A stretch of 29,104 nt of DNA, from positions 1 to 29,104 of the IMG/VR virus record IMGVR_UViG_3300025698_000035. One strand, written 5' to 3'. The first letter of the stretch is position 1. Each line of letters opens with the position of its first letter. This DNA is from a virus. Both the position numbers and the translations under genes were made by a program. Under the pieces are notes generated by a model, which did no database searches, was not told the DNA's origin, and saw only the letters and a list, made by a program, of their open reading frames with translations. Positions 7,913 to 29,104 of this stretch are shown piece after piece.

Positions 7913-10456
7913 CTAACCTATTTCACTTCTACGTCTGTATTGACTTAATGTATTTTGTGTTTCTGTAATATCTTGTTCAACTACATACGCTCGAATTGAT
8001 TGTTGGTTAGTTCCTGCACCTTGTGATTGTAAACTTGAACTACTGTCATTTGCTTGACCAAATAAACTAATGTTTGATGGTACAGGTGCTGCTCCTGCTG
8101 ATGGTATATTGGCTCCTCCTGCAGGTGGTGTAGCAATTGCTGAAGGTAATTCACCTAAAGCGGTTGGTTCAAACTTAGTCTTCGCCATACTTGCAATATT
8201 AATAATACCTGCTGCACTTGCAGCTGCTGCTGCTGCAATACCTAATGGGACACCAACAACAGGAATTGCTGATAAACTAGTAAATGCACCAATAGCACCT
8301 TTTACTACATCAACTGTTGCACTCGCTATATTCATAGCTTTATTAGCTATAAAAGATTTCTTACGTACCTCATTTAAAGCTACAATCTTCTTATTCTCAG
8401 CTTTAACTGTGGCTATATCAAAAACTAATGCTGCTGCTTCTATTGCGTTATCATATTCTTTTTGTGATAATTCACCACTACTTAATTTATCATCTAAAGC
8501 CTTTGTTTCAGCCTTATAGCCCTCATTAATTGCATCTGACTTAGCTTTTGCACTTCTTTCTACATCTGCTTCCTGATGGGCTGTAATTGCATCTACTATA
8601 TCTACTGCTGTTTGCATACCTTCTAAAACCCTATCGGCGGCTTCAAAACCTGCTGCTATTTTTGCTTCATTTTTTGCTTTTAATGCTTCTGCATCAACTA
8701 CTGCAACTTCCTCATTATGTGCTCTTGTGTTTTCTATTACTAATGCATCATAAGCTCCTTGTGATATTAAACCATCATCAAGTGACTTTTTCATCGCAGC
8801 AGCTTTATCAGCATAAAATTTATCAATCTCATCACGTTTTAAATCATATTCAGATTTAGTAACATCTACAAATTTAGGTTTAAAAGATTCTTCTAAATCT
8901 AATCTAGCTTGTTCTTTCTCCTCTAAATCTTTTTTAGCTTTTTTTGTAGCAACTTCTATGGCATCATTTTCACTAGTAGTTAAATCTTCTCGTTGTTTAG
9001 CAAAACCATCTCTAACTTTTTGTTTTTCTCCTTCAGTAGCTTTAAGTAAATTTAACTCAAATATCGCTGACTCCTCATCTATCTTGTTTTGTTTTATTGC
9101 AGCATCAAATTCAGATAAAGTAATATCAGTATTAGCTTCTCGCATTAAATCACTGATAGCTTTTACACGTTCCAGTTCTTCTAAGTCTATTTCTCTTGTG
9201 ACTTTCTTAACATCTTGTAATTCTATTTCATAGGCTGTCTGTGCTTCTATTTGTGCTGCTCGTGCTTCTGCTATTTGGTCTTCAAGTGCCTTGCGTTCTT
9301 CTATATTTGATGTAAAGCTACGTTGTAATTGTAATAAAGATAGATTTAATCTGGCTTCTTCACGAGAGTTATTAGCGATTGCCACTTGTGCTTCACCTGC
9401 CTTTAATAAAGCTGCTCTACGTTCTACATATCCCTTAGTAGTATCTTCACCAATCTGTTTTTGAGTTTCTAACTCTCTATTTAATTGTGCATTTTCTACT
9501 TTTACAGCGTTAATTGCTTTTCTTAAAGCTTCCTGACCATCTACAAGTTTTGCTGAAGCTACAACTGCTTCTTTAACCTCTTCAACAATCTCACCAAACA
9601 CTTCTTTAGCCTTTACTCCTAATTCTTTTGTCTTACCAATTAAATCTTCTTGACCGGTTGTAATCTTTAATACTGCGTTACCTGCTACTTCTGCTGCTCC
9701 ACTAAAATCACCTTTAAATGCAAGTTTAAGTGCTTTACCCATTTTAGGAAAGAACTCAATCACTCCTTGTAACGAGTTCATTAAAGAAACCTTAATAAAA
9801 TGCAAGAATTCATCCATATAAACTTTAGGATTATTGAACATATCAACCATAACAGTACCTGCTGCCATCGCAACTCCCATTAATTTATCAATAATTATCT
9901 TTATAGCACCTGTTGCTATTGCTAATGCTCTTGCTCCTTTCTCAGTATTCTTTAAATATCCAATTAACGCTACAAATCCTACAATTATTGCTCCGATACC
10001 TGTTGCCAAAACTGCTTTACCAATACCTCTAAATGCTTTCTTACCAGCACTCCCAACTGATGTTAACGCTCTCTTACCTGTTCGACCTAATCCTGTAAGG
10101 GTAAATTCTACTTTTCGTATTGATGTTAAACCGTCTTTGAATGAATCGGTTATTCGTTTTCCTGCTCCTTTAATACTTACTCCGAAAGCTAATGCACTAG
10201 CGATACCACTAGTCATAGCACCTTTTATAGCAGCACCAGCACTATCAATGGCACCTTTTATCGTTACAAATAGCGTTTTTAAAGACTGTAATTTACCTGC
10301 GGCATCTGATAATCCACCTAGTTCACTACCAAGTCCTCCAACAGAATCACTAACATCACTCACCGAATCCTTTAAATCCTTTACTGACTCAGTTGCCTTA
10401 TTGACATCTTGTACCCCATCGACTTTTATGTCTAATTTTATATTGTCTTTTGCCAT
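7913..10456 (-). CDS. Tail tape measure protein, 847 aa
   Basis: The protein would set tail length and line the tail lumen. It has an N-terminal low-complexity helix (VKDLKDSVSDVSDSVGGLGSELGG), a hydrophobic segment near 148-168 (ATGIGAIIVGFVALIGYL), a long charged coiled-coil region about 290-680 rich in Glu, Lys and Ala, a second hydrophobic Ala/Gly stretch near 727-757, and a Pro/Gly/Ala linker before a short conserved-looking end (AYVVEQDITETQNTLSQYRRR). If the usual figure of about 1.5 angstrom per residue applies, the tail would be about 125 nm, fitting a siphovirus. It is the first gene after the hairpin cassette and is separated from the tail chaperone by four other genes, which is unusual. 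Confidence 0.85.
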   Translation of the reverse strand: MAKDNIKLDIKVDGVQDVNKATESVKDLKDSVSDVSDSVGGLGSELGGLSDAAGKLQSLKTLFVTIKGAIDSAGAAIKGAMTSGIASALAFGVSIKGAGKRITDSFKDGLTSIRKVEFTLTGLGRTGKRALTSVGSAGKKAFRGIGKAVLATGIGAIIVGFVALIGYLKNTEKGARALAIATGAIKIIIDKLMGVAMAAGTVMVDMFNNPKVYMDEFLHFIKVSLMNSLQGVIEFFPKMGKALKLAFKGDFSGAAEVAGNAVLKITTGQEDLIGKTKELGVKAKEVFGEIVEEVKEAVVASAKLVDGQEALRKAINAVKVENAQLNRELETQKQIGEDTTKGYVERRAALLKAGEAQVAIANNSREEARLNLSLLQLQRSFTSNIEERKALEDQIAEARAAQIEAQTAYEIELQDVKKVTREIDLEELERVKAISDLMREANTDITLSEFDAAIKQNKIDEESAIFELNLLKATEGEKQKVRDGFAKQREDLTTSENDAIEVATKKAKKDLEEKEQARLDLEESFKPKFVDVTKSEYDLKRDEIDKFYADKAAAMKKSLDDGLISQGAYDALVIENTRAHNEEVAVVDAEALKAKNEAKIAAGFEAADRVLEGMQTAVDIVDAITAHQEADVERSAKAKSDAINEGYKAETKALDDKLSSGELSQKEYDNAIEAAALVFDIATVKAENKKIVALNEVRKKSFIANKAMNIASATVDVVKGAIGAFTSLSAIPVVGVPLGIAAAAAASAAGIINIASMAKTKFEPTALGELPSAIATPPAGGANIPSAGAAPVPSNISLFGQANDSSSSLQSQGAGTNQQSIRAYVVEQDITETQNTLSQYRRRSEIG

Positions 10457-10573
10457 CTTATTATTATCGTTTTTATTATATTTATAAATAGTATTTGGTA
10501 TATTTATGTATTTTTTAATGCGGTTCCTTTAAATCGTTGTGTATTATTCAAAGATAGATACTCGTTTTTAGTG

Positions 10574-10635
10574 TTTTGTAGTACACCTTTTTTCATTTAA
10601 TAAGAGAATTATACTAAAAAAGGTGTACTACAAAA
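10574..10635. repeat. Hairpin family 1, copy A (20-bp perfect stem)
   Basis: Arm TTTTGTAGTACACCTTTTTT (10574-10593) is a perfect inverse of 10616-10635, with a 22-nt loop at 10594-10615 (catttaataagagaattatact). The same loop occurs in copy B (10982-11039) and, inverted, in copy C (26020-26079). It is flanked on the left by a tttttagtgttttg repeat and on the right by repeat s1. Because the T-run is inside the arm and A's follow the stem, it does not look like a classical terminator in either direction. Confidence 0.9.
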
Positions 10636-10636
10636 A

Positions 10637-10666
10637 GATTCTGTCAAGGAATCACTGACGAGTAGT
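10637..10666 (+). repeat. Repeat s1, 30 bp, inverted copy at 26209-26238
   Basis: This stretch (gattctgtcaaggaatcact...gagtagt) is identical to the reverse complement of 26209-26238. It links hairpin family 1 and family 2 in this locus, and it adjoins a family-2 hairpin in the other. Confidence 0.9.
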
Positions 10667-10683
10667 ATTGATTTTGCTTCAAA

Positions 10684-10741
10684 CTGTCTTAAAACCACAT
10701 TCTTCTATTATATATAATAATAGAATGTGGTTTTAAGACAG
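10684..10741. repeat. Hairpin family 2, copy 1 (20-bp stem, candidate bidirectional terminator)
   Basis: Arm CTGTCTTAAAACCACATTCT (10684-10703) pairs perfectly with 10722-10741. The loop contains an inner palindrome TATTATA/TATAATA. In either direction the G-containing stem part GUGG is followed by UUUU, so it could stop transcription both ways. The terminal palindrome is shared with 26136-26189, while the stem bases differ and remain paired. Confidence 0.85.
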
Positions 10742-10751
10742 AATCTGTCAA

Positions 10752-10795
10752 AAAATCAAAAGATTACTTCTAGTCAGGCTTTAATCGTTTTTAGT
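10752..10795 (+). repeat. Repeat s2, 44 bp, inverted copy at 26081-26125
   Basis: The element runs from aaaatcaaaagattacttct to ttaatcgtttttagt. Its reverse complement is at 26081-26125 with one extra base. Its end (ttaatcgtttttagt followed by atttt) recurs at 10964-10983 just before hairpin copy B, and a partial version precedes copy A at 10561-10577. Confidence 0.9.
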
Positions 10796-10981
10796 ATTTT
10801 GTCTATAAAACATATTATAAAAAAGTATATGTGTCTGACTTTTGTATTCGTAAATTCTCGAAACGTTAAGCAAGGTATGACTAAAACCCAGACAGTAGCT
10901 GAACCAATAAAATGCTAAAAATGATTCGAGTATTTGTCATAAAGTATAAATGCTTCCTTAGAATTAATCGTTTTTAGTATT

Positions 10982-11039
10982 TTGTACACAACCTTTTTTC
11001 ATTTAATAAGAGAATTATACTAAAAAAGGTTGTGTACAA
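10982..11039. repeat. Hairpin family 1, copy B (18-bp perfect stem, covarying bases)
   Basis: Arms 10982-10999 and 11022-11039 pair perfectly around the same 22-nt loop as copy A (11000-11021). The inner CCTTTTTT/AAAAAAGG is unchanged, but four consecutive pairs in the outer stem differ from copy A: GTACACAACC here against GTAGTACACC there. Each change is matched in the opposite arm. Confidence 0.9.
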
Positions 11040-11052
11040 CACCAAGATACTG

Positions 11053-11092
11053 AAACGTCACCTCCTTAATAAGAAGAATGACGTTTTAAGAC
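11053..11092. repeat. Hairpin family 3 with 29-bp direct repeat s3
   Basis: AAACGTCA (11053-11060) pairs with TGACGTTT (11079-11086). The segment 11064-11092 (ccttaataagaagaatgac, then gttttaagac) recurs in the same orientation at 26269-26297 with two substitutions. It lies just past the stop of the 1074-aa gene, where a terminator is expected, though the minus-strand U-run is weak. Confidence 0.75.
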
Positions 11093-11098
11093 AAAAAA

Positions 11099-14000
11099 CT
11101 ATATGATTGATAAATCGACTACTCTATAACTGAATGTGATTACTATATCACTATCACCTGCTGTAGGTTCTTCGGTCAACTTGACATATAATCTATCATT
11201 TATCGCTGTTTGTGTCGCTGTTGTCGCTAAAACATTCAAAGATAAATTATATACACCAGAACTTGTACCAGATAAAATGTTTTCTCCTATCATTAATGGT
11301 TCAGTTGCATTCGTGTAGTATATCTCAATATCATTATCTTCTCCATATGCAGTTGAATTGAAATCTAAAAAGATACTTAAATTAGTAATATCATAATATT
11401 TGTCAGTTCCTGCAGTTTGTAATAATAATATTGGTGTAGTATCTAGTTCAAGGATTTGTGCTGATGTAATTCTAATAGATTTGTAATATATTTCACCTAC
11501 TACAACGTCATCAACGTATCTATCGCCTGTGATTGTATCGACTTTAAATTTCTCACCCAAATACACTTTATTAGAATCGTCAATATCTAAATTGGAAGCA
11601 CCTATAACTGAAGTGTTTATCGAACGAATTGTATTATTGGAACCATTCAATATAACTATTGAATTATTTTCAATGATATTAAAGTCACCTAATACAAATG
11701 ATTTATCATATAAAGCCTCATTATCATTTCCTAATACAAATTGATTATTTATTTTTGATACAAAACCTACAACATCATCTACATCTGTAACTTCTTCTAC
11801 TCTTAAACCTCCTAATAAATTGTTTGTACCAAATGATATACCATCATAAGCGGTATTAACATTTTGTTTTCTTGCGATTATACTTGGTGGAGTAGTTACA
11901 TAATAAGTAGTTGTATCTATCAACTCACAACTATTAGTATTTGCGTTCCAAACTCCTCCAAGACTATCACAACAATCTTCAGTAACAGCCTGATTAGATT
12001 CTGACTTGTATATATAAATCTTAGGTCCTCCTGTTGTTGCTGATGTATATTCTACTACAGTTAAATCGGTTGGACAAGCATCACTACCTACTGGAATTGG
12101 TGGTGCTATACCTTCATCAAGATAACCACCTAACTCTTCAACTTTTATTAACTCTACTTTTGTTACATCATTGGTTAAAGGATTATAATCAAAAACTTTA
12201 TTGATATAATAGTAAGCATCTTTAACCCATACTTTAAAAGATAAATTGTTTCTAATTTTTCTAATATCAGTTTCATTTAGATTAAAATAAGCTGTTAATA
12301 ATTTACCATTTGAAATCTGATTTATATATATACCCCAATATTTATTATATTGCGTATTATTGGTGTAGGCTATTGTATCATCAAAAAAGTAAAATCTACA
12401 AATATCAAAGTTTAAATCTAAAGTAGGTAGTATAGGGTCATCAAAATGCCCTGCATAAGGATATTGTCTTCTACTAGCACCATTTAAACTCCAAGTATTA
12501 TTTCCACTTAAGTTTTTTAAACCTCCATAATACAATACACGAGGATTACCCACAGGATTATATCTATTGATAGATGGTAAGTATGCACCAAAACTTGTCT
12601 TTACAGTTGGTGTTGGACTAAATGGCGATTGTATTAATTTATCACCAGTAACAAAATCGTTATCAAATACAATATCTACTTCCCCATAAATTTCATTAGT
12701 AGCACCATAATAATCAACGTTTACATCATTAGCAGTATCTTCTTTTGTATAAGTATATTTTATGGTTTTAAATTGCAATTCACTTAGTAACTTAATATCA
12801 TCTTCCCTCGAGTAATCTTTTTTACTACTCCAATCTAGTATTTCTGTATTATTCGCATAATAATCATTATAACTATCAAATAATAATATATTAGGATTAT
12901 CTTCGTCTATATGTATAATAAGATTATATCGCTTTATTAAATCTGATAATAAATCCTTTTGTTTTAACTTTGGTAAGAAATCTTTTAGTCTGACTTTACC
13001 TCCTACACTTACACTATCTGTTAATGGAATTAATTCTACTGTATTCACTCCATTAAATACAAGAGTATTCTCTAAGTCATCAGCAGAAGAAACAAATGGA
13101 GATGTGAGTTTCTTTACCTCCCCATAAATAGTATATCCTGTCACTCTTATTCTTACCTTATCACCATAATCTAATGAGAAATCATTAGTAGTGCCACTAA
13201 TAGATAAAGGTTGTAATCTATTATCATTAGCTGGTATTGGTCCTGGATTAAGTATGTTATCAATCATAAAAGTATCTATAACAGTAAAGGAAGCACCAGT
13301 AGGTGTTTTCCTTTCTACTTCATATATTAACCTATATGTCCAACTGTTAAAAAAGCCAATAATATTATTATATGGATTGATGAACTTCATTTGAAAGTTA
13401 AAATCATATTTGAATCTATATGAACCTGCCCTTTTTATATCAGCTTCAAAATTACTAGCAGACCACTGACTCCCTGGGTCATTAGTAATTTGTGTAAATG
13501 GTACTATAATTGAAGTTTTTGCAGTTGAATTTAATGGACTCCAAAATGCAGGACCTTTTACAAAACCACCATTAAAAACACTATTACGGTCTGTTGTAAC
13601 TCCAACTTCTAAACCAGCTTCAGCTTTATCAACTGCACTAATTTTAGGTAAACCATTACCTGTAAAAGGTAGAATCTCCTTTTCAAACTGTGGATTATCT
13701 TTAAAGCTTCCTCCCCAACCATAACCTGCTCCAGTAATAACAGCATCAAGTACTGCCTTATAAAAAGGTGCAGGATAAAAGTTTTTTACGGTATATTTAC
13801 TATCATCAAATTGTGTTCCAATCATAGGATATACATAACCATTTTCCCAAGTATGTAACCAACTCCCTACTACACTAAGTAATAGATAATCGTGATTATA
13901 AATATCGAGTGAAGATAAATCTTTTAGTTCTGCATCACCTAACTCACTCATTAAATCAATAGCATTTGAAAAGATAACCATATCATAAAATATACTGTTA

Positions 14001-14323
14001 CCTTGAGTATCTACATTACTTAATTTTCTGATATTAGTTAGATGTAAAAAACCATCTATAACTATCTCACTATTAACCAACAATTTAGCATCGGTCTTTT
14101 TATTTGGATTGAACAGAGTAAAATCTGCATTAATATCAAATAATCCACCAAGCACAAAGTTATTATTCTTAGTCCCAGGAATTACAATAGTTTTAGAATA
14201 ACTACCATTCCTTTTAGATATATCTCTAATGTCATTAAAGCTATAATTAAGTCCAATATTAAAATCACCCATATCCAACTCTAAGTTAGCTGGATTATTC
14301 AAAAACATCTGTATTTTATTCAT
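11099..14323 (-). CDS. Large tail hub / baseplate-type protein, 1074 aa
   Basis: The N-terminal 300 residues carry text that I associate with tail-tip proteins of Bacteroidota phages: NYSFNDIRDISKRNGSYSKT, IVIPGTKNNNFVLGGLFDIN and FNPNKKTDAKLLV. The middle (about 450-750) is beta-rich with many Tyr and Asn. A short Cys-bearing segment near 785-800 (CCDSLGGVWNANTNSCE) is followed by about 100 residues of repeated beta turns (FVLGNDN, FVLGDFN, VILNGSN, SVIGASN, about 865-920) resembling a beta-helix or trimeric fibre shaft. It then ends in a compact beta domain. I infer a distal tail hub with a fibre-like C-terminus. It is the last gene of its block; the hairpin cassette follows the stop. Confidence 0.6.
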   Translation of the reverse strand: MNKIQMFLNNPANLELDMGDFNIGLNYSFNDIRDISKRNGSYSKTIVIPGTKNNNFVLGGLFDINADFTLFNPNKKTDAKLLVNSEIVIDGFLHLTNIRKLSNVDTQGNSIFYDMVIFSNAIDLMSELGDAELKDLSSLDIYNHDYLLLSVVGSWLHTWENGYVYPMIGTQFDDSKYTVKNFYPAPFYKAVLDAVITGAGYGWGGSFKDNPQFEKEILPFTGNGLPKISAVDKAEAGLEVGVTTDRNSVFNGGFVKGPAFWSPLNSTAKTSIIVPFTQITNDPGSQWSASNFEADIKRAGSYRFKYDFNFQMKFINPYNNIIGFFNSWTYRLIYEVERKTPTGASFTVIDTFMIDNILNPGPIPANDNRLQPLSISGTTNDFSLDYGDKVRIRVTGYTIYGEVKKLTSPFVSSADDLENTLVFNGVNTVELIPLTDSVSVGGKVRLKDFLPKLKQKDLLSDLIKRYNLIIHIDEDNPNILLFDSYNDYYANNTEILDWSSKKDYSREDDIKLLSELQFKTIKYTYTKEDTANDVNVDYYGATNEIYGEVDIVFDNDFVTGDKLIQSPFSPTPTVKTSFGAYLPSINRYNPVGNPRVLYYGGLKNLSGNNTWSLNGASRRQYPYAGHFDDPILPTLDLNFDICRFYFFDDTIAYTNNTQYNKYWGIYINQISNGKLLTAYFNLNETDIRKIRNNLSFKVWVKDAYYYINKVFDYNPLTNDVTKVELIKVEELGGYLDEGIAPPIPVGSDACPTDLTVVEYTSATTGGPKIYIYKSESNQAVTEDCCDSLGGVWNANTNSCELIDTTTYYVTTPPSIIARKQNVNTAYDGISFGTNNLLGGLRVEEVTDVDDVVGFVSKINNQFVLGNDNEALYDKSFVLGDFNIIENNSIVILNGSNNTIRSINTSVIGASNLDIDDSNKVYLGEKFKVDTITGDRYVDDVVVGEIYYKSIRITSAQILELDTTPILLLQTAGTDKYYDITNLSIFLDFNSTAYGEDNDIEIYYTNATEPLMIGENILSGTSSGVYNLSLNVLATTATQTAINDRLYVKLTEEPTAGDSDIVITFSYRVVDLSII

Positions 14324-17439: not shown

Positions 17440-17972
17440 TCGACTACAAATAACACATCGGTAATCATTAATTGATGTAAAAACAATTCTTTATTTTGAG
17501 TATAGCTTTCCTTTGATACTTCATCTGGTGTCAAACAATTATTTCGAGCATCTAAAATACCTTTACGAATAAGTAATGGTAATATGTTACCTGTTAAATC
17601 ACTGTCGTTACTTGACGAAATAATCATTTCTAAATCAATAGTTTCACCCATAGTCAATTGCGTTAAGTCTTTAACCCTTACGTATGTCACTCCTTGAATG
17701 ACGTATTGTTCCTTTTTATTCTTCTTAGGTACTTCAGACATAAACGATAAACTTACTAAAAGATTATTGTAAACCTCTCGCTTGGTTCTTTTCAAACTAT
17801 CGACATCACAACCAATAAGTGCAGCAACCAGTTTAAGTTCGTGTAAGGTAGTTGCAGCATTTTCAGTTTGACTTGATGTAATATCTCGCATATTTTGAAA
17901 ACGATAAACGCTAACTTCATCCCAAGATGTCGGAACATCATACTTTATATCGTTGATTATTATTTTATTCAT
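17430..17972 (-). CDS. Tail assembly chaperone, zero-frame product, 180 aa
   Basis: It corresponds in place and layout to lambda gpG: a soluble helper that binds the tape measure before tube polymerisation. The N-terminus (KYDVPTSWDEVSVYRFQNM) is one I associate with chaperone-type proteins of Bacteroidota phages. The rest is helical with HELKLVAALIGCD and QLTMGETIDLEMII. It ends FVVDFF at a TGA that directly follows a run of eight T. A perfect T TTT TTT heptamer lies in frame just before the stop, so ribosomes can slip to -1 and enter the next ORF. It is unusually far from the tape measure gene (about 7 kb). Confidence 0.7.
   Translation of the reverse strand: MNKIIINDIKYDVPTSWDEVSVYRFQNMRDITSSQTENAATTLHELKLVAALIGCDVDSLKRTKREVYNNLLVSLSFMSEVPKKNKKEQYVIQGVTYVRVKDLTQLTMGETIDLEMIISSSNDSDLTGNILPLLIRKGILDARNNCLTPDEVSKESYTQNKELFLHQLMITDVLFVVDFF
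17433..17439 (-). promoter_or_regulatory. Slippery heptamer T TTT TTT for programmed -1 frameshifting
   Basis: On the minus strand the zero frame reads GAT TTT TTT TGA. Tandem slippage by one base gives TTT TTT TTG and continues in the open -1 frame for 86 codons. The stop codon immediately after the heptamer would add a pause. I did not identify a clear downstream pseudoknot. Confidence 0.75.
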
Positions 17973-19579: not shown

Positions 19580-20899
19580 TCAAAATCTAAATGTAATAGC
19601 TGGTGTATATTGCGAACATTCAAAATATGTACGTAACATCATAACATCTGAATAATCGGGTGAACGACCTATCATACCCTTAACACTTGCTTTACTATTG
19701 ATTTGTAATTTTGCATCTTTATCTATATTGCTTCGTTGGACAACTGATAACTCTTGAATGATGTAACCTTTTTGTTGAAGACTACAATTGTAAATTTCAA
19801 TCATACCATCGTTTACTAATTGTGCCAATTTGTAATAGCACTGTGTTTTTAAGTTTTGATAATTCTCACCGCCTTTCGCTTTCGAGTTATTAACAAAATC
19901 GACACACCCAGGTAAGTAATCGACTACTCCTCCACCTACTCCGTCACCATCAATTACTACTTTTTGATTCGATATATTATAAAGGTTAGTCAATGATTTA
20001 ATTTTATCTACAATTTCGTTTATCAAGGATATTTTAAGTTCTATTATCTCGATTATTTTAAAGTTGTCCCATACACATATAACACATTTGTCTTTACCTT
20101 TACGTGCTACATCACAGGTAATATAATATTTAGCATTCGATTGTACGTATGGGTCAGACTTAAATATATTTAGTATGTTATCATATTTCATCAAAGCATC
20201 ACTGTCCTCATATTCCCATTCACCATTTAATAATCTACGTTTAGATAAGTCATCTAACTTTCGTAATTGCGTGATATAATGTTTTGATATGTTTGGATTG
20301 TCGGTTACTAATGCAGGTATGAATTTCTTATAGTCTTCCAATTGTAAGTTCTTATGTTTTTTATAGAACTGCTCGTACACCCAATTCTTAGCTGGATTAC
20401 AGGACATTAAAAGTTTGGGCATTAGATTATGTACTTCCAATTTATAACGAATACGTGAGGCTACTATGTTCTTTGCTTTCTCAGTGATTTGATTTACCTC
20501 ATCAATAAATGCACCCGTTATTTCGAGTGAACCCAAACTATCAAAGTTTGGGTCACTTGGATATAAGAATAAATCTTTTAGTATTATGACACTATTATTA
20601 TAAAACCTTATTTCACCTGACTGCTGGTTGTAATTATAATGCGTATCGTTCAATCCCCAATCTTGACATATTTCAAAAAATGTATTTAAAGTCGTTTGCT
20701 TTAATGCTTTTAGTTTAGCACGTCCCATCAACCATCTTGTATCAGAGTATTGAATACAATTAGATATTAACCAACAGCAGCCTAACCAGGACTTGCCACC
20801 TCCAGCACTTCCACCAAATAATACCTCGGTTGTTACGTCATCATTTAAGTAATCTATTGCGAGTTGTTGCTTTGTAGTTAGTTGTACATTAATTTCCAT
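19580..20899 (-). CDS. terL: Terminase large subunit, 439 aa
   Basis: This is the packaging motor ATPase and nuclease. The ATPase domain has Walker A GGSAGGGKS (residues 29-37), Walker B ITGAFIDEV with Asp133-Glu134, and a coupling motif MSCNPAKNW (165-173). The RNase H-like nuclease domain begins near 258 with ITCDVARKGKD (Asp263), then VVIDGDGVGGG (Asp317/Asp319), and PDYSDVMML (Asp418). All expected acidic residues are present, so the enzyme should be active. The length is typical of PBSX/SPP1-type large subunits. Its start overlaps the small subunit's end by 11 bp, consistent with coupled translation. Confidence 0.95.
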   Translation of the reverse strand: MEINVQLTTKQQLAIDYLNDDVTTEVLFGGSAGGGKSWLGCCWLISNCIQYSDTRWLMGRAKLKALKQTTLNTFFEICQDWGLNDTHYNYNQQSGEIRFYNNSVIILKDLFLYPSDPNFDSLGSLEITGAFIDEVNQITEKAKNIVASRIRYKLEVHNLMPKLLMSCNPAKNWVYEQFYKKHKNLQLEDYKKFIPALVTDNPNISKHYITQLRKLDDLSKRRLLNGEWEYEDSDALMKYDNILNIFKSDPYVQSNAKYYITCDVARKGKDKCVICVWDNFKIIEIIELKISLINEIVDKIKSLTNLYNISNQKVVIDGDGVGGGVVDYLPGCVDFVNNSKAKGGENYQNLKTQCYYKLAQLVNDGMIEIYNCSLQQKGYIIQELSVVQRSNIDKDAKLQINSKASVKGMIGRSPDYSDVMMLRTYFECSQYTPAITFRF

Positions 20900-22707: not shown

Positions 22708-25644
22708 CTATTTTAAGAATGAAAAGAAATCTCCTAATGATTCGATTGTCAATTCATTTTTTGCTTCATAATATTTGTCAGTATTTATATCTAAGTTAGT
22801 TGGATTCGTGTTTTCAATAACGAATTTCTTTAATTGCTTAGGTCCTTCGCTTTCAGGATTCAATACACGAACTGATTTTACACTAACAAACGTCTGTAAT
22901 ATTTGATTTGCTTTCATCTTTGAATATGTCGCTGAATAATCCCCAAAACATAAAACTCTAATTAGGTTCATCTTTTCACATATTTCATCTGACGAAATTA
23001 TCATATCTTTTTTAAATGACTCAATCATATATTTGTAAAAGTGTATAACATCTAAGTCTAACATCATTACTTTGCTATTGGTTTTCAATTTCTGAACTCT
23101 AACTGCTCGTTTGAATTTATTGAATGCTGATGTCCCATACCCAATATCTTGTAACACTTTACACGCTAAATCTAATTTGTCAGAATCTATGTAATTTGAA
23201 ATAAACGATACTTTAAATCTTATATCTCGTTGTAAGCTAGTCAATTTCGTATCTTCTAATTCGGTTCTATTTGTGTCGTGAGTTTCTTCTGAAATTATAT
23301 CTATTAGATTGTTAATTTCTAATATCTTTTCTTCTTTTTTAGAAGCAGTGATTTCCTTTGCACTCAAAATAGATTGTTGTGATAATGAATCGACAATCTT
23401 TTCAGTAAAAAATTCTTTGAATGAATACTTGGACAACTCGCTTGACATTAGTTCGTTATTATTATTTTGTATTCTAGTTTGTTCGCTAAACCAATCATAA
23501 GATTTGCTTAACTCGTCTATAACAATTGAACCATTTTGAATCATACAGTATCTACCAGTTAATGTGTTTTTCTCATTCAATAATTCACTCGACAATTGCG
23601 ATTCTAAATACACTTGATTATATTGTAACGCAGCATTAGCACGACCAATAATAACATCCTTTGTATATTCAGAGTTGAAGGTCACGATACTATCCTCATA
23701 ATGCTTTGACTTTAAAATAGTAACTGTCAATTTATCATATTTTCTGAATCTTGCTGTTGCTTGTTCAATCTCTTGTGCGTTAAAGTAAGTGTATAAAATT
23801 ACTGCGATATGCTTTGAATGTTTTGTGATTGAATTTCCTTCTTTCAAAACAGTTGTCGCAATAACTACATCATAATCAGACATATCACCTTTAACTACAA
23901 TATCATTATATTCCTTTGTATTCTTTTTTTCTGCATCAATAGATGTGACTTTTAGTCCCGCATCACGTAGAATCGCTTTTAGTGTTCCTAATGCACCATC
24001 TTCTTGCTTGTTGTTAAAATATATAACGGTTTGAATGTTATTCTTTTGATTACTAATACAAATGTCTTTTGTTGTAGCATTTCGATTTTCATAAGTTACA
24101 TACGTGAAATTCTTATCCTTTACTGTTTCGTGTACATATCGAATCGTTTTTAAATCACTGAATAAAGTATGAAAATTGAATGTGGGTGTTGCAGTCATAG
24201 TAAAGAATCTTTTGAATGTAGGTATGACAGACATAGTGCTGTTTAACGTATCTAATAAAAATCCTTTAGAAGCAGAAATAGTATAATTTTGAACTTCGTC
24301 TATGAATAAAAGGTATTTTGAAGCATCAATTTTTGTAGTTAGCAAATTCAAAGAGTTATAAGTAGTCACAATAAAGTCAGGTGATTCTCCAATCTCTTTG
24401 TTGTATTGATAAAATGGTATTGCATTATATTGTTCTGCCACTTGTTCTACTAATCCTGCTGTTCGTACAACTAAGACACGCTTTTCAGTCAACGTACCGA
24501 TAAATGCTGTTTTACCAGAAGCAGTAGGTGATACGATTGAGGCACTAATACTTAAATTAGGCTTCAAGTCACTTAGGTACTTTCCTTCAGGTATAATAAT
24601 CGCATTTGATTTATCTAAATTGAAATCTTCTAATTCTTTTTGTTCTCGGTCTTTTTGCATTTCAATATTAACACCAAATTGAGTAGAAGCATAATTTACA
24701 TACGCTCTTGTAAAATCACTCTTACGTGGTGCAAATTCATTCCCATTACGTAATTCTAAATATGCGATACAATCTTTTAATTCTACACCGAAATTCACAA
24801 TTGAACCTGCAAAACTAGTAAAGAACAAAGTGTTTATTACGCTGTTAGTTTTACTCGCTGCTCCGTAAGCAATATCACAATAAGATAATATTTGTTTTTC
24901 AGTATGATTATAGTTCTGACCTTCGCTTGGTGTAAATGTACCTAGATATTTGTTTACTGCTTTTTTTGATTTGCCCTTTGCTGTTACGATAACTTTACTT
25001 GCGTCAAACATAAATTGTGTTGCATCTAAGTTTAAGTAAGGTTCTGAATCATAAGATACAAACGATGGTTGATTTAATTGTAATTTATCAAACCACTTTG
25101 CGTCAATATCGAATTGTTTTTGAAACGCAGTATTAGCAGCAAGTACACAATCTAAATGATTATCTTCGTGTGCATTCGTTTGAACTAAAACTCTAAGCCC
25201 ACAACCTGAAGGTGAAATAGCACATAATGCTACCCAATCTAATTCTGATATTCTCGACTTAACATAGTTAGCTAATTCGATTCCTCCCTTTTTCTTGAAG
25301 TCAACATCAATTTGAATACAACCATTATAAATAGCATCAACTTTTCTATGTCCAAATAGATTAGTAGTTGAAAACATAAAAAATGGTAAACTGTTTTTGG
25401 TTGGTCTTATTTCTTCCTTTAGTGCTTTGATTATTACGCTCGTTTCTTCTTCAGTAGAATCGTTTTTAATCGAAGATAAAGCATATTTCACTTTCTCTTG
25501 CATATCATCATAGAACGCTGGTCTTTCACTTAAAGCTATAATGTCGTGCAATTCTTGAATACTAATTTGAGTATTAGTATGTTGGTAGTCATTTACTGTT
25601 GCTGTACTGTAATTGAATCTTAAATCTTTTAATTTTACTCGCAT
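22708..25644 (-). CDS. Primase-helicase fusion protein (BT4734/VirE-N-type primase domain plus SF2 helicase), 978 aa
   Basis: It is the only recognisable replication enzyme here. Residues about 80-215 look like an archaeo-eukaryotic-type primase domain of the BT4734/VirE-N group: CIQIDVDFK with Asp113 and Asp115, SPSGCGLRVLV (144-154), and a following QPSFVSYDSEPY segment. Residues about 365-650 form a superfamily 2 helicase: motif I SPTASGKT (372-379), motif II IDEV (448-451), motif III TMTATP (482-487), and a motif VI-like QATARFRKYDKL (628-639). The C-terminal 320 residues are helical and unassigned. It probably primes and unwinds phage DNA at the origin and hands over to host polymerase. 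Single polypeptide, no frameshift. ATG 25644 follows a long leader with hairpins. Confidence 0.75.
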   Translation of the reverse strand: MRVKLKDLRFNYSTATVNDYQHTNTQISIQELHDIIALSERPAFYDDMQEKVKYALSSIKNDSTEEETSVIIKALKEEIRPTKNSLPFFMFSTTNLFGHRKVDAIYNGCIQIDVDFKKKGGIELANYVKSRISELDWVALCAISPSGCGLRVLVQTNAHEDNHLDCVLAANTAFQKQFDIDAKWFDKLQLNQPSFVSYDSEPYLNLDATQFMFDASKVIVTAKGKSKKAVNKYLGTFTPSEGQNYNHTEKQILSYCDIAYGAASKTNSVINTLFFTSFAGSIVNFGVELKDCIAYLELRNGNEFAPRKSDFTRAYVNYASTQFGVNIEMQKDREQKELEDFNLDKSNAIIIPEGKYLSDLKPNLSISASIVSPTASGKTAFIGTLTEKRVLVVRTAGLVEQVAEQYNAIPFYQYNKEIGESPDFIVTTYNSLNLLTTKIDASKYLLFIDEVQNYTISASKGFLLDTLNSTMSVIPTFKRFFTMTATPTFNFHTLFSDLKTIRYVHETVKDKNFTYVTYENRNATTKDICISNQKNNIQTVIYFNNKQEDGALGTLKAILRDAGLKVTSIDAEKKNTKEYNDIVVKGDMSDYDVVIATTVLKEGNSITKHSKHIAVILYTYFNAQEIEQATARFRKYDKLTVTILKSKHYEDSIVTFNSEYTKDVIIGRANAALQYNQVYLESQLSSELLNEKNTLTGRYCMIQNGSIVIDELSKSYDWFSEQTRIQNNNNELMSSELSKYSFKEFFTEKIVDSLSQQSILSAKEITASKKEEKILEINNLIDIISEETHDTNRTELEDTKLTSLQRDIRFKVSFISNYIDSDKLDLACKVLQDIGYGTSAFNKFKRAVRVQKLKTNSKVMMLDLDVIHFYKYMIESFKKDMIISSDEICEKMNLIRVLCFGDYSATYSKMKANQILQTFVSVKSVRVLNPESEGPKQLKKFVIENTNPTNLDINTDKYYEAKNELTIESLGDFFSFLK

Positions 25645-25746
25645 TTTTTATTAGTCTTAAATCAGTTTTATTTTTTTTCTTACTGATTTGTAATTTTTTT
25701 TGTATCATATAATATGTGTCGTTTTTGAATGTGTTTAGTAAAAGTA

Positions 25747-25779
25747 AAACATAGTTAGATTATAAGCCTAACTATGTTT
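25747..25779. terminator. 12-bp perfect hairpin in primase-helicase leader
   Basis: AAACATAGTTAG (25747-25758) pairs with 25768-25779 around a 9-nt loop. On the minus strand the stem is followed by UUUUACUUUU, so it may act as a terminator or attenuator 100 bp before the primase-helicase start. It could also close transcription coming from the 27-kb genes. Confidence 0.6.
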
Positions 25780-25865
25780 CATCACAAACAAAAAAAATCA
25801 CTAATTAAAAATGATGAATGTATTGAGTTACTTATTGTGTGTAACAAAGTACATATATATAACGT

Positions 25866-25886
25866 ATAAAGTTGCAATAAAGTTGC
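25866..25886 (+). repeat. Two direct repeats ATAAAGTTGC, 11-bp spacing
   Basis: Copies at 25866-25875 and 25877-25886 are identical with one base between, about one helical turn apart. This could be an operator or a minimal iteron pair upstream of the replication gene. No third copy was seen nearby. Confidence 0.5.
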
Positions 25887-26019
25887 GTAAATGTCAATTA
25901 TTTTTAAAATAAATTATTATTATTTTTTATAATTAGTAATATGCTTTATAAGTTATACTATTTAGACGAACATTATTTAAAAAGTCACATATTTATAACA
26001 CAAAACCTAAAGAATCTTT

Positions 26020-26079
26020 TTTGTAGTACACCTTTTTTAGTATAATTCTCTTATTAAATGAAAAAAGGTGTACTACAAA
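26020..26079. repeat. Hairpin family 1, copy C (19-bp perfect stem, inverted loop)
   Basis: Arms 26020-26038 and 26061-26079 pair perfectly. The 22-nt loop (26039-26060) is the exact reverse complement of the copy A and B loops, so this copy is inverted. Its stem matches copy A rather than copy B. Confidence 0.9.
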
Positions 26080-26080
26080 C

Positions 26081-26125
26081 ACTAAAAACGATTAAAAGCC
26101 TGACTAGAAGTAATCTTTTGATTTT
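26081..26125 (-). repeat. Repeat s2, inverted copy
   Basis: This is the reverse complement of 10752-10795 with one additional base. It joins hairpin copy C to the family-2 hairpin. Confidence 0.9.
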
Positions 26126-26135
26126 GCTAGAATCC

Positions 26136-26189
26136 TGTCAAAAACCCGCATCTACTATTATATATAATAATAGATGCGGGTTTTTGACA
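26136..26189. terminator. Hairpin family 2, copy 2: bidirectional intrinsic terminator
   Basis: TGTCAAAAACCCGCATCTA (26136-26154) pairs perfectly with 26171-26189 around a loop whose core is the same TATTATATATAATAA palindrome as in copy 1. The GC-rich part CCCGC/GCGGG is followed by UUUUU in both directions. It is well placed to end the transcript from the 27-kb genes before the primase-helicase leader. Confidence 0.85.
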
Positions 26190-26208
26190 TAAATACAGCA
26201 AAATGATT

Positions 26209-26238
26209 ACTACTCGTCAGTGATTCCTTGACAGAATC
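26209..26238 (-). repeat. Repeat s1, inverted copy
   Basis: Identical over 30 bp to the reverse complement of 10637-10666. Next to it, 26241-26266 resembles the left arm of a family-2 hairpin (aaaacgtgcatctactattgta) without a matching right arm, probably a decayed third copy. Confidence 0.85.
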
Positions 26239-26268
26239 TGTCTTAAAACGTGCATCTACTATTGTAAT

Positions 26269-26297
26269 CCTTAATAAGAAGAATGACATTTTAACAC
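26269..26297 (+). repeat. Direct repeat s3, second copy
   Basis: This 29-bp segment matches 11064-11092 in the same orientation with two substitutions, unlike s1, s2 and hairpin 1, which are inverted between the loci. A near match to aaaaaactatat follows in both loci (11094-11103 and about 26313-26324). Confidence 0.8.
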
Positions 26298-26365
26298 AAA
26301 ATTTGATATAATAAAAAACTATATCCCATAAACAGCCTGACAATTTCAAGTCTTGCCCTAAATAT

Positions 26366-26533
26366 ATGATTGTGGTTAAAATCTTAGTATGTTTTTTCGT
26401 TTATGTAACACTTAATGATTTTAACGAAAAAACTATACCATCACTAAAAAACGTTAATCAATTGATACTCAGTGACTTACAAGTAAACTATATTTTAAAA
26501 TCGCATACAAAAATAAATAGTTTATATGTATAA
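26366..26533 (+). CDS. Possible small plus-strand membrane peptide, 55 aa
   Basis: ATG to TAA gives 55 residues with a hydrophobic N-terminus (MIVVKILVCFFVYVTL) that could be a signal or anchor, followed by a polar part (NDFNEKTIPSLKNVNQLILSDLQ). It lies against the direction of the phage genes, beside the hairpin cassette. An 11-bp hairpin (26391-26401 with 26423-26433) lies inside the frame. A TATAAT sequence is at 26307-26312, about 54 bp upstream. A frame of this size can arise by chance in A+T-rich DNA. Function unknown. Confidence 0.3.
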   Translation: MIVVKILVCFFVYVTLNDFNEKTIPSLKNVNQLILSDLQVNYILKSHTKINSLYV

Positions 26534-26674
26534 TGTTAAATATATTGTTAAATACTTAACACCCCTTTCGTTAATATGTTTTTTGAAGCCAATAGAAAAC
26601 TTTAACTTGTTTCCTCTCGAATTTCAGCCAATTGCTACTCGTTCGTGGTCTATTCTACTAATAAAAATCTTCAT
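26522..26674 (-). pseudogene. Possible decayed small ORF (one internal TGA)
   Basis: From ATG 26674 the frame reads MKIFISRIDHERVAIG, then TGA, then NSRGNKLKFSIGFKKH and on to a TAA at 26522. It would be 50 codons with a single stop at codon 17 (a TGG to TGA change would restore it). The remaining gap to 26801 has only a 16-codon minus ORF and a 10-bp hairpin (26734-26743 with 26761-26770). Weak evidence; it may be non-coding. Confidence 0.2.
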
Positions 26675-26733
26675 AACTCTTTTATTTTATTTATCATTTG
26701 TTTGAAACTTCAATCACAACCCAAATACTATCA

Positions 26734-26770
26734 TTAGAATCCATTATTAGACTTTTAATTTGGATTCTAA
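26734..26770. repeat. 10-bp perfect hairpin downstream of holin candidate
   Basis: TTAGAATCCA (26734-26743) pairs with 26761-26770 around a 17-nt loop. No U-run follows on the minus strand, so it is not a standard terminator. It lies 32 bp past the stop of the 89-aa gene and could be an mRNA 3' end stabiliser. Confidence 0.45.
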
Positions 26771-26801
26771 GACGTTTTAAATAGATTAGGACATAAGTAT
26801 A

Positions 26802-27263: not shown

Positions 27264-27293
27264 AAACGCAATAACATCACTGTTATTGCGTTT
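27264..27293. terminator. Bidirectional intrinsic terminator
   Basis: AAACGCAATAACA (27264-27276) pairs perfectly with 27281-27293 around TCAC. On the plus strand UUUUU ends the stem, closing the 45-aa ORF. On the minus strand the stem is followed by CGUUUUUC, closing or attenuating the 92-aa gene whose stop is at 27297. Confidence 0.8.
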
Positions 27294-28092: not shown

Positions 28093-29104
28093 TTATATAT
28101 TTATTGTCCAGCCTTTACCTAATAAATTAGTCTTGGCTGCTTCACCTGCTGTTGTTAATGAACCTCCTCCAAAAATACTGCTTGTAAAACTACCGTTACT
28201 TAATCCGTGACTATCTAAATCAATCAATAATTGACTATTAACAGCAGCGTTTAAATTGTTTGAGTAAACGCTTAAAACAGTTAAAAGCGGATTGTTTGAT
28301 ATATCTAAATCATCTAAATTGTTCCCTCTGATTACTAAACGACTTAACAACGGATTATTAGATATATCTAAATTATCTAAATCATTTAGTTCTGCACTAA
28401 TATATGTTAGTAAAGGATTATTCGACAAATCTAAACTAGTAATATCATTTGCTCTACAAAGAATCACCTCCAATAAAGGATTATTAGATGTATTCAAAGA
28501 AGTTAAATCGTTTACCTGACAGTTTAAATTATCAAGTAAATAATTTTCTGACAAATCCAATATTTCCATTGAGTTACCTGCAAGGTTTAAGATTTGTAAA
28601 TTAGGAAACTTGCCTAATAATTCACTTGTAAAATCAGTTGTTAATGAGTTTGAGCGAATATCAATATTTGTAACACTTTCATAATCATCTCTATCACCAA
28701 AATCAGTACAAGCTGTTGGTAAATTACTATAAACACCACCTATTTTATAAGGTAATTTAGCATCTTCTGTTAATACTGCTGTAGTTGTCTGATATGGAGT
28801 AGATACACTTCCTTTTTGTATTTGTGCAAAACAAAAGAAAACTGTACCTGTTGATTGTGGAGCAGTTGGATTTGTTTGTGCATTTTTACCAATATGTAAA
28901 TTTATAATAGTACTTATTGGGGTAAAATTATAATCAATTCGAGTAAAAGTACTTGTATTCAAACCATCAGCTGCTGTATAAAGTCTATTGAAATGTAATG
29001 TGTTCCAAGCGAATCCATTATTAACTACAACAGCCAAATCTGTTGCTGTACCTAATTTTACATACCAACTAAAAGTATATTCTACATTTGCTGTTAATCC
29101 TTCA
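28093..29104 (-). CDS. Receptor-binding / tail fibre protein, C-terminal part with leucine-rich repeats
   Basis: This is the continuation of the gene that starts at 2440; bases 29031-29104 duplicate 1-74. The apparent start near 29037 is only an internal TTG, because the frame is open upstream and joins the 1-2440 frame exactly (3378 nt in total, 1125 aa plus stop). The first part completes the second carbohydrate-binding-like domain. Residues 971-1075 (28560-28246) form five 21-residue leucine-rich repeats of the type LDISNNPLLxxLxxxxNxL. They are followed by a 50-residue tail ending in GKGWTINI. A C-terminal LRR is a plausible distal receptor-recognition module. The next gene starts 4 bp downstream of the stop, so they are probably co-transcribed. 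The LRR call is firm; the receptor role is inferred. Confidence 0.8.
   Translation of the reverse strand, partial: EGLTANVEYTFSWYVKLGTATDLAVVVNNGFAWNTLHFNRLYTAADGLNTSTFTRIDYNFTPISTIINLHIGKNAQTNPTAPQSTGTVFFCFAQIQKGSVSTPYQTTTAVLTEDAKLPYKIGGVYSNLPTACTDFGDRDDYESVTNIDIRSNSLTTDFTSELLGKFPNLQILNLAGNSMEILDLSENYLLDNLNCQVNDLTSLNTSNNPLLEVILCRANDITSLDLSNNPLLTYISAELNDLDNLDISNNPLLSRLVIRGNNLDDLDISNNPLLTVLSVYSNNLNAAVNSQLLIDLDSHGLSNGSFTSSIFGGGSLTTAGEAAKTNLLGKGWTINI
28246..28560 (-). repeat. Five tandem 63-bp units encoding 21-residue leucine-rich repeats
   Basis: Read on the minus strand, the units begin LDLSEN, LNTSNN, LDLSNN, LDISNN and LDISNN, each followed by [PY]LL and a conserved N nine or ten residues later. 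The third to fifth units are close at DNA level (recurrent ggattatt and atatctaaat blocks on the plus strand). This suggests recent unit duplication and a potential for copy-number change by slippage or recombination. Confidence 0.85.
29031..29104. repeat. 74-bp terminal overlap identical to 1-74 (circular contig)
   Basis: The last 74 bases equal the first 74 exactly. The receptor-binding gene reads through the join in frame, so this is an overlap of a circular molecule or circularly permuted assembly rather than a coding duplication. The circle is 29,030 bp. Confidence 0.9.

Follow-up and report, generated by a model that had tools for sequence, protein, structure and literature searches.

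The two largest noncoding regions of this phage genome, R1 and R2 (642 and 1157 nt), carry inverted copies of a composite palindromic unit whose hairpin stems change in sequence and remain perfectly paired. As the likeliest explanation we favor, tentatively, a lineage-specific AT-rich palindromic repeat of organellar-type organization, with stems kept perfect by template switching during replication. The window (the whole stretch of 29,104 nt analyzed here, positions 1 to 29,104 of IMG/VR virus record IMGVR_UViG_3300025698_000035) has a 74-bp terminal direct repeat, bases 1-74 being exactly those of 29031-29104, and an ORF ending at base 2 runs on across the joint into the ORF 28093-29103. The simplest reading of the record is therefore a complete phage genome of ~29.03 kb in circularly permuted form. 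Its confident genes all point leftward, the minus strand bears nearly all coding sequence, and terminase, portal, protease, and tape-measure families were recognized among the ORFs. The TerL protein is 53% identical to that of Flavobacterium phage 11b and 50% to that of Cellulophaga phage phi10:1, the nearest record being IMGVR_UViG_3300033153_003684 (68%). These relatives suggest a flavobacterial affinity of the phage.

R1 lies between a tail protein gene (11099-14323) and the tape-measure gene (7913-10456), and R2 directly upstream of a primase-helicase gene. The features of both regions are the following:

10457-11098: R1, 642 nt noncoding, one interrupted cassette
10574-10635, plus strand: hp1 copy A, 20-bp perfect stem and 22-nt loop
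10637-10675, plus strand: m2, the composite palindrome's left outer arm, with its core at 10655-10675
10684-10741, plus strand: hp2 copy D, 20-bp perfect stem and TATTATATATAATA core
10752-10777, minus strand: m2', right outer arm, the m2 motif inverted
10781-10802, plus strand: m1 repeat, exact 22-nt direct repeat of 10964-10985
10803-10963: segment x, 161 nt between two exact m1 copies
10964-10985, plus strand: m1 repeat preceding hp1 copy B, exact 22-nt direct repeat
10982-11039, plus strand: hp1 copy B, 18-bp perfect stem, with four adjacent pairs unlike those of A and C
11055-11096 (approximately), plus strand: hairpin G, a degenerate family-2 (hp2) relative
22708-25644, minus strand: neighboring gene with a BT4734-like AEP primase domain and helicase motifs, a possible user of the cassette
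25645-26801: R2, 1157 nt noncoding, upstream of the primase-helicase gene, one inverted cassette
26020-26079, minus strand: hp1 copy C, inverted, 19-bp perfect stem
26077-26091, minus strand: m1 core adjoining hp1 copy C
26100-26125, plus strand: m2' of R2
26136-26189, minus strand: hp2 copy E, 19-bp perfect stem
26200-26220, minus strand: m2 of R2
26238-26302 (approximately), plus strand: hairpin F, degenerate and related to family 2, its two arms being of different types

On the plus strand, R1 reads m1 - hp1(A) - m2 - hp2(D) - m2' - m1 - x - m1 - hp1(B) - G, and the reverse complement of R2 reads F - m2 - hp2(E) - m2' - m1 - hp1(C). R2 is one unit, inverted with respect to R1, and R1 is one unit broken up by segment x, plus a preceding m1-hp1. 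The composite unit (outer inverted arms around hp2, m1, and hp1) is present in two inverted copies with partial or degenerate copies nearby. Within it, hp2 forms the tip of a ~120-nt imperfect palindrome, m2 and m2' being imperfect inverted repeats around it. The outer-arm motif of this palindrome (CTGACKAGWAGTAWT..ATTTT) occurs four times, as does the m1 core (TCGTTTTTAGTRTTT), three of whose four occurrences lie directly before hp1. Together with three copies of hp1 and two of hp2 plus two degenerate ones, all of them are found only in R1 and R2, and they show what characterizes a palindromic repeat, namely several copies, a conserved loop, and a paired stem. Segment x is not present in the R2 unit and contains a degenerate inverted m1-like stretch; it is bracketed by exact 22-nt direct repeats, as a segment inserted with target-site duplication would be, but these repeats are m1 itself. 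An inversion of a large segment between R1 and R2 was considered and rejected, the genes on both arcs all pointing the same way. Hairpin telomeres were another candidate, prompted by the 58-bp near-palindrome hp2, but no protelomerase was recognized.

A sequence-only reading of this DNA had described the five hairpins A to E, and all of them are in place with the perfect stems listed above, compared with a longest stem (loop of at most 30 nt) of 8-14 bp in 100 dinucleotide shuffles of the genome. It had also reported correctly that A, B, and C share an identical 22-nt loop, that four successive stem pairs of B are unlike those of A and C, each changed on both sides in our pair-by-pair check, and that D and E have a common core (TATTATATATAATA) and stems that differ yet remain perfect. 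In our comparison the loop of C is inverted, and the D and E stems differ by four substitutions and one indel in each arm, every one of them compensated, with one inner pair in E only. The predicted single-strand folds are far more stable than those of shuffled sequences (z of -10.3 for R1 as RNA and -13.8 for R2 as DNA); such scores express the palindromes once more and add no independent evidence of function.

The same reading had taken the preserved pairing as a pointer to selection on the fold, with arm correction by template switching as an alternative. The paired changes are real, but selection is not established by two or three copies per family from one genome, and the alternative turned out to fit better, given the changes in blocks, the variable stems, and the arms of E and F. 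Seven of the eight substituted pairs (four in hp1, four in hp2) are of transversion type and hence had no route through a G.U intermediate; they include all four adjacent changed pairs of hp1, each of them two-sided. Neither a one-sided change among the perfect stems compared between copies nor a G.U pair in any perfect stem was found. The cassettes accordingly display multiple adjacent two-sided changes, and the published signs of template switching are multiple compensatory changes, arm homogenization, and inversion of the loop or spacer (PMC8794818, PMC8604942). Between D and E, 5 of the 20 stem positions differ in each arm, whereas the flanks (outer arms and m1) are identical at 37 of 40 and 44 of 47 positions; the greater variability of the hp2 stem is only suggestive, as the Fisher test (p about 0.016) is post hoc, based on rounded counts and on segments picked after seeing the alignment. 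In flank-aligned orientation, the hp2 core is flanked by C..A in R1 and T..G in R2, so that it appears to be inverted between D and E, a result that two point changes would also give.

The degenerate hairpins add information on the arms themselves. Hairpin F has two unlike arms, and the E arms score 36 and 30 against its left arm and 14 and 14 against its right arm, with random genome segments scoring at most 26 as a baseline; E carries on both arms a sequence found only on the left arm of F. E could be a corrected derivative of an F-like arm, a direction of change that two or three copies from one genome, with no close relative, do not polarize. The best match of the D arms outside D is the right arm of G (40 and 36), but an origin of D from that arm is weakly supported because D also scores 32 against the left arm of F. 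Comparison of these paralogous copies points to template switching as the process. While single-stranded during replication, the palindromes would fold into hairpins or cruciforms, and the polymerase could jump template between the two arms, or between neighboring related hairpins, using one arm as the template for its partner. Any alteration on one side would pass to the opposite side in a single event and cores could flip, with the result that stems would drift yet stay perfect and covariation need not mean selection on RNA.

Since template switching can yield two-sided changes, covariation no longer demonstrates selection on the fold, although such selection may act besides it. In a shuffle test of covariation, the observed value is attained in 6 of 500 shuffles, but the statistic has almost no power because there are only two or three copies per family, from one genome, with no homologue found. 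The covariance-model search that the sequence-only reading had proposed was carried out for hp1, whose model matched the window alone among 45 sources and gave four matches at E<=0.01 per genome in 398 genomes, the number expected by chance.

Exact patterns of the hp1 loop, m1, and the m2 motif had no match in viral contigs, and 85,000 genomes contained no instance of the hp1 inner stem together with its loop. The hp2 core with its flanks was found in six viral contigs, where no stem of comparable length accompanies it. When R1 and R2 were compared with phages by blastn, and part of R1 with plasmids, nothing convincing was retrieved. The cassette searches relied on exact patterns, one model (hp1), or blastn, and records very near the window may escape the tools, so the lack of cassette homologues is provisional. 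The cassette is absent from five relatives (G001, G002, G003, G007, and G009), the nearest of which is only 68% identical in TerL. At the position of R1, the gap between the tail and tape-measure homologues is 3 nt in G009 (tape-measure gene assigned by position), one gene with gaps of at most 11 nt occupies the junction in G002 and G003, and three genes do so in G001. The largest gap in simple ORF maps of G001, G002, G003, and G009 is 259 nt, compared with 642 and 1157 nt here, and the longest perfect stem reaches 11 bp in the five relatives and 12 bp in the parts of the 11b and phi10:1 genomes examined. Because the relatives' junctions are filled with genes and have no comparable stem, R1 is best read as a probable insertion or expansion in this lineage. 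The nearest relative (G001, L177) has three 35-40-nt intergenic repeats of its own (TATATCTGTTTTATAAAAAA, at 17829-17863, 20825-20859, and 26562-26601), unrelated to the cassette. Phages 11b and phi10:1 also have intergenic repeats, with TATATTTG or TATCTTTG boxes (L011 11178-11249 and 20367-20440; L012 18229-18284 and 22404-22459), which are probably Bacteroidota-type promoters.

The neighborhood of R2 opens a different possibility, which we consider plausible but doubtful: that the hairpins, exposed on single strands, are replication elements acting as loading or priming sites for the AEP primase-helicase, one copy per strand in the manner of ssiA/ssiB, with loops and flanks read by sequence and stems by shape only. 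The gene directly downstream of R2 encodes a 978-aa protein with an AEP primase domain (PF08800, 41.6 bits vs a cut-off of 22.4; motif I IQIDVDF) and SF2-type helicase motifs, so the replicon encodes its own AEP primase, as expected of ssi-type sites. The cassettes are inverted, one on each strand, and divide the genome into arcs of 15.4 and 13.6 kb, close to halves; each has an AT-rich palindromic core flanked by inverted motifs. In plasmid RSF1010, the AEP-fold primase RepB', encoded by the same replicon, recognizes a hairpin site present once per strand (ssiA and ssiB; PMC4434180); that site is a 40-nt sequence with a small hairpin, far smaller than the composite of >200 nt found here. As an origin signal, GC skew is negative, with no switch at either R1 or R2, and the search for a primase relative in which to look for co-occurrence was negative: no full-length relative of the 978-aa protein appeared in the collections searched, none in phages, and none in viral contigs by exact peptides, the N-terminal domain alone being found in 7 of 298 genomes. 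An AlphaFold model predicted without an alignment was unusable (mean pLDDT of 33). Even less likely, in our estimation, is the fuller version in which the two inverted composite palindromes would be hairpin initiation sites for the BT4734-like AEP primase-helicase and constitute an undescribed phage element, its stems renewed by template switching and its recognized loops and flanks fixed.

A role in RNA, with transcript hairpins parting two late transcription units as RNase III sites, 3'-end stabilizers, or terminators and selection keeping their pairing, seems to us rather unlikely. Known hairpins between phage genes include RNase III sites as well as intrinsic terminators, RNase III could plausibly cut stems of ~20 bp, and the cassettes occupy the two largest intergenic regions of a genome transcribed in one direction. 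Between the tape-measure gene and hp1 copy A there is a -7 box of the Bacteroidota type (TATCTTTG), and in D as well as in E the C.A mismatch of the hp2 core reads as G.U on the gene-sense strand. However, R2 is inverted while the direction of transcription is constant, the palindromes are nested, and the perfect stems lack G.U pairs and change in blocks. The terminator scan, which considers loops of 3-8 nt only and is thus unsuited to hp1, called no stem followed by a T-run in the cassettes, only a separate hairpin at 25745-25781. Rfam gave no match at gathering score, and a low threshold produced only microRNA-type hairpin matches far below it. The orientation of R2 and the missing terminator calls weaken an RNA role, though hp2 may yet be a processing site. 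We regard as very unlikely a recombinase or transposase site served in trans (attC-, REP-, or MITE-like), the first two being types that the sequence-only reading had mentioned: the recurrence of the palindromes, the inversion of some copies, and the 161-nt segment between exact direct repeats would suit it, but the ORFs scanned include neither an integrase, such as the integron integrase that attC sites would need, nor a transposase or a RAYT domain, as REP elements would (the enzyme or RAYT could be encoded by the host), and the terminal stems vary in sequence, unlike those of transposase-read sites. Palindromes assemble poorly and this is a metagenomic assembly, yet an assembly or amplification artefact is highly improbable, as the cassettes differ at many positions and have distinct flanks, so that one cannot simply have been duplicated from the other.

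Among three possible uses, a self-maintaining palindromic repeat appears to match the anatomy best, and we infer that the element is mainly such a noncoding repeat and not a dedicated RNA. The absence of any copy outside R1 and R2 counts against this explanation, and persistence of the cassettes may need a benefit, since long palindromes tend to be unstable. The identical loops and near-identical flanks may reflect a sequence constraint, that is, function, or just recent duplication. The closest precedents are organellar: in Volvox organelles, nested AT-rich palindromes whose loops are conserved and whose stems vary were described as selfish repeats (PMC2670323). Like the cassette, the short palindromic repeats of Volvox mtDNA and ptDNA, yeast GC clusters, and Allomyces double-hairpin elements are ~50-60 nt noncoding palindromes with a conserved loop, variable stems, and nested or tandem copies, AT-rich in Volvox mtDNA (PMC2670323, PMC4478555). 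The cassette differs in residing in a compact dsDNA phage, with few copies in two regions and a longer hp1 loop (22 nt). It appears to share arm homogenization, block changes, and core inversion with quasipalindrome correction and template-switch mutation (PMC8794818, PMC8604942), although our case relies on paralogous copies and not on an ancestor-descendant pair. If correct, this explanation would offer a worked example of perfect 'compensatory' stem changes that arise with no need for selection base by base, would counsel caution when RNAs are sought by covariation among a few copies in a single genome, and would suggest that organelle-like palindromic repeats can persist in a compact phage; it would also provide a testable candidate hairpin site adjoining an uncharacterized AEP primase-helicase.

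Outside the cassettes, we observed two shorter hairpins of 12-13 bp, at 27264-27293 and 25745-25781, the latter being terminator-like on the minus strand according to the scan. The ORFs joined across the ends of the record (2-2440 and 28093-29103, both minus strand) encode a large protein whose C-terminal part resembles leucine-rich repeats (PHROG 7816, of unknown function; Pfam LRR matches below cut-off), a possible candidate for a tail fiber or receptor-binding protein.
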